Assembly: GCA_015488325.1 (NCBI GenBank)
Contig: WFOA01000145.1
Coordinates: 1-38,463 of the forward strand
Direction of reading: 5' to 3'
Source: Acidimicrobiia bacterium
Lineage (GTDB): Bacteria; Actinomycetota; Acidimicrobiia; Spongiisociales; ZC4RG35
DNA length: 38,463 bases
Numbering within the stretch: position 1 is the stretch's first letter; each line of letters starts with the position of its first letter. Below the pieces are notes generated by a model. That model was not told the origin of the DNA, ran no database searches, and worked only from the letters and a program-made list of their open reading frames with translations. Position numbers and translations under genes: made by a program. Shown here one piece after another: positions 4,907 to 7,852 of the stretch.

Positions 4907-4943
4907 GCCGGGTGGGCTCCAGAATGCTGGAGCCCACCCGGCT
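4906..4943 (-). terminator. Strong rho-independent-like hairpin after the small secreted-protein gene
   Basis: A perfect 17-bp GC-rich stem (4906-4922 with 4927-4943) and an AATG loop, starting 14 nt after the stop codon of the gene at 4958-5317. A long U-tract is absent, as is common in high-GC actinobacteria. It insulates the ABC operon from the upstream gene. Confidence 0.8.
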
Positions 4944-4957
4944 GCTCGGGTTGGTCG

Positions 4958-5317
4958 CTACGCATCGGTAGTGACCCAGCTGCTGCAGTTGTTGGGATAC
5001 AACGGCACGTCCCGACACACGCGGAAGGTGATCTTCGGATTCGTCGGAGCGAGAACGAACCGCTTGACGGTGCCGCTTCCCTGCCGGTTATACAGCCTCG
5101 TGCCGGAGCCGCACGGGCCGGACCCCCAGCAGTACTCGGCGTACACAGCCATGCCATCGGCCAATGTGTCGTACACGTACATGTAGTTCGGGCTGCTGTA
5201 CCACGAGGCCTTCGCCCCCGTCGTGGTCACCGACGTGCCTGATGCCAACGCAGCTCCCGATAAGAGAGCCACCAAAGCCAGCACCGCCAGTGTTGCGAGG
5301 CCAGCGCGTCTCGCCAT
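4958..5317 (-). CDS. Small secreted protein of unknown function
   Basis: A 119-residue protein. The ATG at 5317 is preceded by a strong AAAGGAGG site. Residues 1-25 are a Sec signal peptide: a positive MARR start, a long hydrophobic core and a probable cut after ALA. The mature part is about 94 residues, rich in Tyr, Ser, Thr and Gly, with four cysteines in two CX5-8C-like pairs (CWGSGPC and CRDVPLYPNNC) that probably form disulphides. It looks like a compact beta-rich exported protein. I recognise no family. It is monocistronic: a promoter upstream with a (CA)8 spacer and a perfect hairpin terminator downstream. Expression may be phase variable through the spacer repeat (see findings). Confidence 0.8.
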   Translation of the reverse strand: MARRAGLATLAVLALVALLSGAALASGTSVTTTGAKASWYSSPNYMYVYDTLADGMAVYAEYCWGSGPCGSGTRLYNRQGSGTVKRFVLAPTNPKITFRVCRDVPLYPNNCSSWVTTDA

Positions 5318-5357
5318 GAGGCGCCCTCCTTTCTCCTCACAGCCCGCCGGCGCGCCC

Positions 5358-5386
5358 ACCATGCCACACACACACACACATGTCAA
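5358..5386 (-). promoter_or_regulatory. Promoter whose 17-nt spacer is a dinucleotide repeat
   Basis: On the minus strand a perfect TTGACA (5386-5381) is followed after exactly 17 nt by CATGGT (5363-5358), a weak -10. The spacer is (TG)8 plus one G. Transcription would start near 5350, about 20-25 nt upstream of the AAAGGAGG site of the small secreted-protein gene. Gain or loss of TG units would change the spacer by 2 nt steps. Confidence 0.6.
5365..5380. repeat. (CA)8 dinucleotide repeat
   Basis: Eight uninterrupted CA units (TG on the minus strand), the only clear dinucleotide microsatellite I noticed in the window. It sits precisely between the -35 and -10 of the small secreted-protein promoter. 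Confidence 0.95.
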
Positions 5387-5444: not shown

Positions 5445-5470
5445 GGGGGGCGGCCATCGGGCCGCCCCCC
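5445..5470 (-). terminator. GC-rich hairpin terminator after pnp
   Basis: A perfect 11-bp stem of GGGGGGCGGCC (5445-5455) with its complement at 5460-5470 and a 4-nt loop, 21 nt after the pnp stop codon. It closes the rpsO-pnp unit. No U-tract. Confidence 0.75.
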
Positions 5471-5491: not shown

Positions 5492-7852
5492 TCAGCCTCG
5501 GGTGAGGTCCTCGAAGGTCTCCTCGAAGGACGGCGCCACCCGGCGGCGCTCGGAACGCTGCTGCGGCTTCTGTTCGGCACGGGATTCGGAGCGGCGCTCG
5601 CCTCGCTCACGACCTCCCCGGTCGCCGCCCCGGCCACGGTCGCGGTCACGCCGCTCCCGACCGCCGTCGCCCGAACGGCGCCCTTCGGAGCCGCCGCCTG
5701 ACGGACCTTCCACGGGTTCGGCCAGGTCGAGGCTCAGCTTGCCGTTGCGGTCGACCTCCCGGAGCACCACCTTGACCCGATCGCCCAACTTCAGGTAGTC
5801 CTCCACCCGTTCGACCCGGCGGGACGGGTCGATCTTCGAGATGTGCAGCAGGCCATCCCGACCGGGGAGGATGTTGATGAACGCACCGAACTTGGTGATG
5901 TTCACCACCTCGCCCTCGTACGTCTTCCCGATCTCCGGTTCCGGCGGGTAGACGATCTGCATGATCCGCTGCTTGGCATCCTCCAACACCCCGCCGTCGT
6001 TGGAGGCGATCCGGACGATGCCGTAGCCGTCCTCCTCGTCGATCTCGATGGTGGCGCCGGTGAGCTCCTCCAGCTCCCGAACCACCTTGCCCTTCGGCCC
6101 GATGACCTCGCCGATCTTGTCCTTGGGGATCTGAAGCGACTCGATCCGCGGTGCCCACCGGTTCAGCTCGGGACGCGGGGCGGGGATCACCGCCTTCATC
6201 GCGTCGAGGATCTTCAGCCTCGCCCGTTTCGCCTGGTCGAGGGCTCTCGTCAGCACCTCGGACGGAAGCCCTTGGATCTTCGTGTCGAGCTGCAGGGCCG
6301 TGATCACGTTCTCGGTCCCCGCCACCTTGAAGTCCATGTCGCCGAGGGCGTCTTCCGCACCGAGGATGTCGGTGAGGGTGACGAACTCGCCGTCCTGGTG
6401 GATCAGCCCCATGGCGATCCCGGCCACCGGCTCGGAGATCGGCACCCCGGCGTCCATGAGGGACAGCGACGACGCGCACACCGACGCCATCGACGTCGAC
6501 CCGTTCGACGACAGCACCTCCGAGACGAGACGGAGCGCGTAGGGGAACTCGTCCTCGGTGGGTACCACCGGGAGCACCGCCTTCTCGGCGAGGGCGCCGT
6601 GTCCGATCTCGCGTCGCTTCGGACCCCGCATGAAGCCGGCCTCACCGACCGAGAACGGCGGGAAGTTGTAGTGGTGCATGTAGCGCTTCGACTCCTCGAT
6701 CCCGAGGTTGTCGAGCATCTGCTCCATCTTCAGCATCCCCAACGTGGTGATGTTGAGCACCTGGGTCTCGCCCCGCTGGAACAGACCCGAGCCGTGGGTG
6801 CGCTCCACCACACCGACTTCGACGGTGAGGGGCCGCAGATCCTCGGGTCCCCGACCGTCGAGCCGCACCCCCTCTTTCACCACCCGGTCGCGCATCATGT
6901 CCTTCAGCAGCGCCTTGAAGGCCTTCTTGACGTCGGCCTCCTGGTCTTCGTCGACACCGAGTTCGGCGATCACCTCGGCGAGGGCGGCCTCTTCTGCCTC
7001 TTGGCGCTCGTGTTTGCCGGCGATGGTGATCACGTCACGTAGCTTCGGCGCGGCCACATCCCTGACCCGGTCGACGAGCGACTCGTCGAGGGGTTCGACC
7101 CGAGGCCACTCCACCTCGACCTTCTCCACCTGGGAGAGGAGCTCGAGCTGAAGGTCGAGCGCCTGGGCGATGTAGTCCTTCGCCTCCTCCAGGCCGCGGG
7201 CGACGGTCTCCTCGTCGCTGGGGGTGTCGCCTTCGGCTACGAGGCGGAGCCCGTCGGGAGTGGCCCCGGCCTCCACCATCATGATGTCGATCACCCCGTC
7301 GGGATTCCTCCTGCCGGCTACCACCAGTTCGAACACCGACTGTTCGAGATCCTCGTGGGTGGGGAACGGCACCCAGATCCCCTTCTTCAATCCCAGCCTG
7401 ACGGCCCCGATGGGCCCTTGGAACGGAATCGGGCTCACCATGAGAGCCGCCGAGGCGCCGTTGAGGGCGACCACGTCGAAGGGATTCTCGGTGTCGACCG
7501 CCAGGGTGGTGACGACCACCTGGGTCTCACACCGGAACCAGTCCTCGAAGGAGGGACGGAGGGGACGGTCGATGAGCCGGGCGGCGAGGATCGCCTGCTC
7601 GGTGGGACGCCCCTCCCGACGGAAGAACGAGCCGGGGATCCTCCCGGCGGCGTACATCCGCTCCTCGAAGTCAACGGTGAGGGGGAAGAAGTCGATCCCC
7701 TCCCGGAGACGTTTGTTGGCGGTGGCGGTGACGAGCATCTCGGTCCCGCCGAGTTTCGCCACCACCGCGCCGTCGGCTTGGGGGGCGAGTTTGCCGGTGC
7801 TGAAGACGAACTCTTTGTCGCCAATCGCACCACGTACGGTGATTTCGGGCAC
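5492..7852 (-). CDS. pnp: Polyribonucleotide nucleotidyltransferase (PNPase)
   Basis: A 786-residue phosphorolytic 3'-5' exoribonuclease of RNA decay, acting as a cytoplasmic trimer. Two RNase PH-like domains are joined by the helical linker; the first carries FFRREGRPTEQ and DRPLRPSF, and the second contains the active core. A KH domain (about 575-640, GPKGK loop) and an S1 domain (about 640-714, KFGAFINILPGRDGLLHIS) follow. Residues 715-786 are an unusually long Arg/Gly/Glu-rich disordered tail ending FEETFEDLTRG. The start is GTG at 7852 with AAAAGGAG about 8 nt upstream. The gene follows rpsO, the universal order. Two hairpins in the intergenic region probably act in termination or mRNA processing. 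Confidence 0.98.
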   Translation of the reverse strand: MPEITVRGAIGDKEFVFSTGKLAPQADGAVVAKLGGTEMLVTATANKRLREGIDFFPLTVDFEERMYAAGRIPGSFFRREGRPTEQAILAARLIDRPLRPSFEDWFRCETQVVVTTLAVDTENPFDVVALNGASAALMVSPIPFQGPIGAVRLGLKKGIWVPFPTHEDLEQSVFELVVAGRRNPDGVIDIMMVEAGATPDGLRLVAEGDTPSDEETVARGLEEAKDYIAQALDLQLELLSQVEKVEVEWPRVEPLDESLVDRVRDVAAPKLRDVITIAGKHERQEAEEAALAEVIAELGVDEDQEADVKKAFKALLKDMMRDRVVKEGVRLDGRGPEDLRPLTVEVGVVERTHGSGLFQRGETQVLNITTLGMLKMEQMLDNLGIEESKRYMHHYNFPPFSVGEAGFMRGPKRREIGHGALAEKAVLPVVPTEDEFPYALRLVSEVLSSNGSTSMASVCASSLSLMDAGVPISEPVAGIAMGLIHQDGEFVTLTDILGAEDALGDMDFKVAGTENVITALQLDTKIQGLPSEVLTRALDQAKRARLKILDAMKAVIPAPRPELNRWAPRIESLQIPKDKIGEVIGPKGKVVRELEELTGATIEIDEEDGYGIVRIASNDGGVLEDAKQRIMQIVYPPEPEIGKTYEGEVVNITKFGAFINILPGRDGLLHISKIDPSRRVERVEDYLKLGDRVKVVLREVDRNGKLSLDLAEPVEGPSGGGSEGRRSGDGGRERRDRDRGRGGDRGGRERGERRSESRAEQKPQQRSERRRVAPSFEETFEDLTRG

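Follow-up and report, generated by a model that had tools for sequence, protein, structure and literature searches.

Does a run of TG dinucleotides between the two recognition elements of a promoter serve as a slippage switch in an uncultured actinobacterium? The question is raised by contig WFOA01000145.1 of an Acidimicrobiia bacterium (assembly GCA_015488325.1; the 38,463 nucleotides (nt) analysed are called the window here), in which a (TG)8 array separates a -35 from a putative -10 element in front of a gene for a small, probably secreted protein. Most known cases of promoter phase variation through slipping repeats come from host-associated Gram-negative bacteria and from mycoplasmas. A preliminary description of the window had proposed that this single promoter is phase-variable. 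We find, beyond that description, that it is a member of a multigene set. The set is best read as a group of slippage-tuned, phase-variable spacer promoters, a variant of the hif-type switch of Haemophilus; we put the probability of this reading at roughly two in three.

The window promoter

Read on the minus strand from 5386 to 5358, the site is TTGACA-TGTGTGTGTGTGTGTG-G-CATGGT, where a single G at 5364 completes a spacer of exactly 17 nt, 16 nt of which are the (TG)8 array. The hexamer, the spacer length and the all-but-one-nucleotide TG content given in the preliminary description were thereby confirmed. The promoter and its gene consist of the following features, in which G001 is the sister species introduced below.

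5381..5386, minus strand: -35 hexamer TTGACA, read from the sequence; TTGAC is kept in the G001 orthologue and the identical hexamer abuts other arrays
5365..5380, minus strand: (TG)8 dinucleotide array, most of the 17-nt spacer (Tandem Repeats Finder: 8.0 copies, 100%); the G001 orthologue has four units
5358..5363, minus strand: putative -10 CATGGT, read from the sequence and preceded by TG-G as an extended -10; CAGGAT in the orthologue, CATGTT in paralogues
5325..5329, minus strand: Shine-Dalgarno sequence GGAGG, read from the sequence
4958..5317, minus strand: gene for a 119-amino-acid, probably secreted protein (open reading frame and translation); the G001 orthologue is 66-67% identical

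As in the hif-type switch, the simple repeat sits between the -35 and the putative -10. The last TG unit of the window array doubles as the TG of the extended -10 (TGG-CATGGT). A CANNNT with TGN before it is kept in the G001 orthologue and in the paralogues, and it is mainly in the extended form TGN-[CT]ANNNT that the -10 of this class can be recognised. TTGACA itself occurs twice in the window, against 6.45 expected occurrences.

A multigene set in the genus and family

Three genomes carry the comparison: G000 (2.89 Mb), which holds the window; G001 (JALSJV01, the metagenome-assembled genome (MAG) Acidimicrobiia 354-166 scaf2bin.111), the only other genome of the genus; and G005 (BPGJ01, KatS3mg011), from another genus of the family. 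Only three TG/CA arrays of at least six units are present in G000, and all three start directly at TTGACA: the (TG)8 of the window, a (TG)11 on contig C101 and, on the minus strand of C59, a (CA)10. The chance of all three abutting TTGACA is p about 5e-11 from base composition. Just downstream of each is a gene whose product is small and apparently secreted. TTGAC[AG] followed by a shorter array adds three loci (one on C8, two on C69), which brings G000 to at least six. Ten loci were found in G001, three of them paralogues on the single contig C30 and the others on C76, C90, C138, C234, C248 (with TCGACA), C329 and C331. Nine of the ten precede small secreted-type genes, and the one on C76 precedes a gene for a 400-amino-acid protein with a weak matrixin-like stretch. 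G005 has two loci and a third one that is degenerate (TTGCGG). Both TG and CA versions of the array occur.

The pattern TTGACAN{0,8}TGTGTGTG has 8 matches in G000, 18 in G001 and 4 in G005 (overlapping counts), and the reversed control pattern has none in all 34 genomes of the family. Among 138 genomes of the order no further genome carries the pattern, and among 396 of the phylum only one does (G447). The earlier claim that the controlled gene encodes a small secreted protein is plausible for the window gene, whose product has a signal-peptide-like N terminus, and may extend to the set, whose downstream genes encode mostly small, probably secreted proteins (N termini in G000 and G001 judged by inspection).

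Variation in repeat number

In both G000 and G001 the window gene or its orthologue has pnp upstream and an ABC transporter downstream. The orthologous promoter, TTGACG-CG(TG)4-T-CAGGAT, has a spacer of 11 nt versus 17 nt in the window. TTGAC, array, CANNNT and leader of the two promoters align with one 6-nt (three-unit) gap, and the DNA upstream of TTGAC is unalignable. The G001 paralogues C30c, C30a and C248 have 5, 6 and 8 units and spacers of 15, 17 and 21 nt, respectively; the C30 and C248 paralogues have TTGACAACGG/TCGACAACGG...GCATGTTCGG in common, and C30a differs from C30c at a single position in the 56 nt that follow the array. When the first plausible [CT]ANNNT is taken as the -10, the other loci have spacers of 9, 9, 11, 13, 13, 23, 25 and 29 nt. 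Repeat number varies among related loci, again as in the hif-type switch, so at some loci the number of units evolves more quickly than the flanking DNA. Of the whole set, only some members (the window gene, C30a and perhaps C76) would now be at the spacer optimum. The parity of the spacers, nearly all of which are odd, was not used as evidence: lengths of 16 and 18 nt also work generally, and the paralogues are not independent.

With respect to the proposal of a phase-variable promoter, it stands that the array is the spacer of a conserved promoter class and that its length varies. An invariant repeat, which the preliminary description had named as counter-evidence, is contradicted across species (8 versus 4 units) and among paralogues; at locus B, the second pair of orthologues, however, both species have 11 units.

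Two further observations concern these loci in G001. The sequence of the window gene's orthologue is divided between the end of one contig and the start of another (L131 and L133; C234 and C145). The overlap of the two contigs differs by two single-nucleotide polymorphisms, so that at least two strains seem to be merged in the MAG here. At C329 (L116, 5658-7100) an insertion sequence with a DDE-type transposase (IS481-like by eye), flanked by an apparent target duplication GGTTCGGACTGAGGG, is located between the (TG)11 array and the locus B secreted-protein gene; the promoter would therefore be cut off from its gene.

Mismatch-repair background

MutS_V was not found in G000, G001 or G005 by a search that detected it in 11 of 14 control genomes, and NucS is present in all three. 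NucS-type mismatch repair has been described as unable to correct insertions and deletions (indels; PMC8228993). In these bacteria, loops formed by slippage in (TG)n would therefore escape repair, polymerase proofreading aside.

The same layout outside the family

When about 85,000 genomes were scanned for TTGACA-N0-4-(TG)6, 45 stretches matched; 26 independent matches remain once this family and redundant copies are removed. In 14 of these 26 a TANNNT begins at most 1 nt from the end of the array, compared to 3.5% in nearby DNA (p 3e-14), so that the layout recurs across phyla. Spacers of 17 and 19 nt are frequent. Examples with 17 nt were found in an Oscillospiraceae MAG (TATAAT), Phycisphaera, Saccharibacteria and the Acidimicrobiaceae MAG NAT239, where the promoter precedes a secreted-type gene. 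Two Rhodothermus genomes carry TTGACA-AGA-(TG)7-TTAATT (17 nt) and TTGACA-A-(TG)10-TTAATT (21 nt), with small proteins of signal-like start encoded downstream.

The layout was also seen in Rhodothermus MAGs (L092, L120, L121, L090) before small secreted-type genes with a common GC-rich leader; one of these MAGs stems from the same sample series (354-166) as G001. Many uncultured Bacilli MAGs (L086, L093, L095, L097, L117, L119, L126, L129) have TTGACA-ACG/GG-(TG)7-10 followed by GATAAT or TATAAT. Oddly, the short gene behind these promoters encodes about 135 amino acids that resemble just domain I of MutS (MutS_I, E 3e-4 in L119). In viral contigs there are 13 TTGACA matches and 7 matches to a scrambled control, with redundancy in both sets; this is no strong enrichment, and only two matches have an adjacent TANNNT. 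Three related viral contigs (L143, L147, L152) have a common TTGACA-(TG)n-GATTAT, with six versus seven units in otherwise identical nearby flanks.

The window gene and its surroundings

Two strong hairpins enclose the promoter and the gene.

5445..5470, minus strand: strong hairpin between pnp and the TG promoter, GGGGGGCGGCC-CGAT-GGCCGCCCCCC, predicted from the sequence
4907..4942, minus strand: strong hairpin 3' of the secreted-protein gene, GCCGGGTGGGCTCCAG-CATT-CTGGAGCCCACCCGGC, predicted from the sequence

The first is the probable end of the pnp transcript. Since the second follows the gene, this is probably a single-gene transcript, and because the gene is located between the two, the TG promoter is the only evident one for it. 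The gene starts at ATG 5317 and stops at 4958. Its product had no significant Pfam match, and the AlphaFold2 model is of low confidence (mean predicted local distance difference test score, pLDDT, 57) and suggests beta strands; modelling of a paralogous family likewise had low confidence (mean pLDDT 51).

The array was also considered as coding DNA, with the TTG of TTGACA in frame. This was rejected: a Shine-Dalgarno sequence precedes ATG 5317, the leader is conserved and the orthologue has GTG at the equivalent place, which makes the array promoter DNA. The leaders (window 5318-5355, minus strand; L043, L137, L136, L050, L048) tend to fold into a hairpin whose loop contains the Shine-Dalgarno sequence (GGGACC..GGTCCC, and similar hairpins with differing sequences). 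Their folding energies are mostly no better than those of shuffled sequences and alone not significant, and for this reason the hairpins were left out of the argument.

Downstream of several of the secreted-protein genes (L002 1984-2925, L050, L019) a second gene encodes a lipoprotein-like protein that contains cysteine, which suggests a two-gene unit. In G001 the beginning of an ECF-like sigma factor frame (L040, C29; Sigma70_r2, E 6e-4) contains a (CA)9 array (6054-6071), and a gene for an Inhibitor_I36-like secreted protein (E 3e-7) is next to this locus. At nine units the upstream ATG is out of frame, whereas 7 or 10 units would restore the sigma frame, and this locus may therefore be a phase-variable coding locus.

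Proposed switch and alternatives

In the switch that we propose, the (TG)8 array would set the distance between a consensus -35 and a weak extended -10. Replication slippage would add or remove 2-bp units, with no detectable MutS to repair the loops, and the spacer length would change as a result: at about 17 nt, the length in this assembly, the promoter would be active, and at 15 nt or less or at 19 nt or more it would be weak or off. Cells of one clone would then differ in the expression of the small secreted protein, and with at least six such promoters in G000 and ten in the sister species, each with an independent repeat count, the phase variation would be combinatorial. That the promoters are active, that their activity depends on spacer length and that they switch within a population is what we infer from these arrangements.

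Several findings weigh against the proposed switch. The main weakness is the combination of spacers predicted to be off and arrays too short for a quick switch back: many members have spacers far from 17 nt (9-13 or 21-29), although their genes are still intact, and arrays of four units are expected to slip rarely. Some members could run on the extended -10 alone or be otherwise regulated. The -10 of the window promoter is weak, and because CATGGT matches TATAAT at only three of six positions, a plain sigma-70 consensus scan missed the site; it found no other promoter for the gene either. The arrays of G000 and G001 were read from consensus assemblies, and at locus B the number of units has not changed.

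The constancy of locus B also fits the alternative that survives best, namely that the arrays drift over evolutionary time and tune expression between species and paralogues, without switching inside a population. The documented differences are of exactly these two kinds, and many arrays, with 4-6 units, are under the usual length for fast slippage. However, arrays of 8-13 units are found at about half the loci, MutS was not detected, and near-identical paralogues already differ in unit number. In G001, moreover, contig ends are overrepresented close to the arrays: 5 of 11 are within 400 nt, against a base rate of 9% (p 0.002). The cause may be heterogeneity of the population, but repeats could have the same effect. 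We consider drift alone to be rather unlikely.

A second alternative is that the array is a structural or protein-binding element, for instance one prone to form Z-DNA and sensitive to supercoiling, whose length is of little weight. Alternating purine-pyrimidine arrays can adopt Z-DNA, and the occurrence of both TG and CA versions and of -10 elements at very different distances downstream would suit such a role. The exact placement between -35 and -10 recurs in other phyla, however, often with spacers of 17-19 nt, and no partner protein or conserved site was found, which makes this explanation improbable. That a functionless repeat was merely copied with its gene family from one ancestral TG promoter is very improbable: several G000 and G001 members are indeed clear paralogues with a common leader, but the proteins of loci A, B, C, C8 and C331 have no evident sequence relationship, TTGAC is kept although the flanks upstream of it are unalignable, and the same layout arises in other phyla.

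For slippage-tuned spacer promoters a wider picture can be proposed, which we offer tentatively and hold somewhat more doubtful than not. Probably thermophilic, uncultured Acidimicrobiia would run a set of secreted proteins via independently slipping TG-spacer promoters, favoured by NucS-only repair, and the layout would have evolved separately in Rhodothermus, Planctomycetota, Bacilli, Saccharibacteria and others. A multigene set of phase-variable promoters in an uncultured actinobacterium, with no mismatch repair detected except one that leaves indels uncorrected, would give a testable link between the type of repair and contingency loci, and TTGACA-(TG)n-[CT]ANNNT would be a simple DNA signature for finding such switches in uncultured bacteria.

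Comparison with known systems

A literature search of partial coverage returned no report of a phase-variable promoter with a TG spacer and no study of phase variation in Acidimicrobiia. Within the actinobacteria, phase variation has been reported for Mycobacterium tuberculosis, e.g. at glpK and other homopolymer loci (cited in PMC11868660). Simple-repeat indels are common to both cases, but those of M. tuberculosis are in homopolymers and do not form a family of TG spacer promoters. In Neisseria nadA the number of repeats also alters the spacing of promoter elements; the repeats are described, however, as lying between distal operators and acting via the repressor NadR, not as a -35/-10 spacer (PMC2791445). 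The vlhA genes of Mycoplasma gallisepticum resemble the present set in being a gene family of which each member has its own promoter with a repeat of variable length, but these repeats are described as GAA trinucleotides upstream of the promoter instead of in the spacer (PMC6258824).

The closest known case is that of hifA/hifB in Haemophilus influenzae, where (TA)9-11 is located in the -35/-10 spacer and its length was proposed to alter spacing and expression (PMC2651432). The hif repeat is TA and serves two divergent promoters in one intergenic region of a Gram-negative pathogen, whereas the repeats described here are TG or CA and serve a multigene set in an uncultured actinobacterium without detectable MutS. 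Switching has been documented only in hif, and the likeness described here is one on paper, known from sequence. It comprises the dinucleotide array between -35 and -10 and, for the set described here only putatively, the extracellular nature of the products (PMC2651432).
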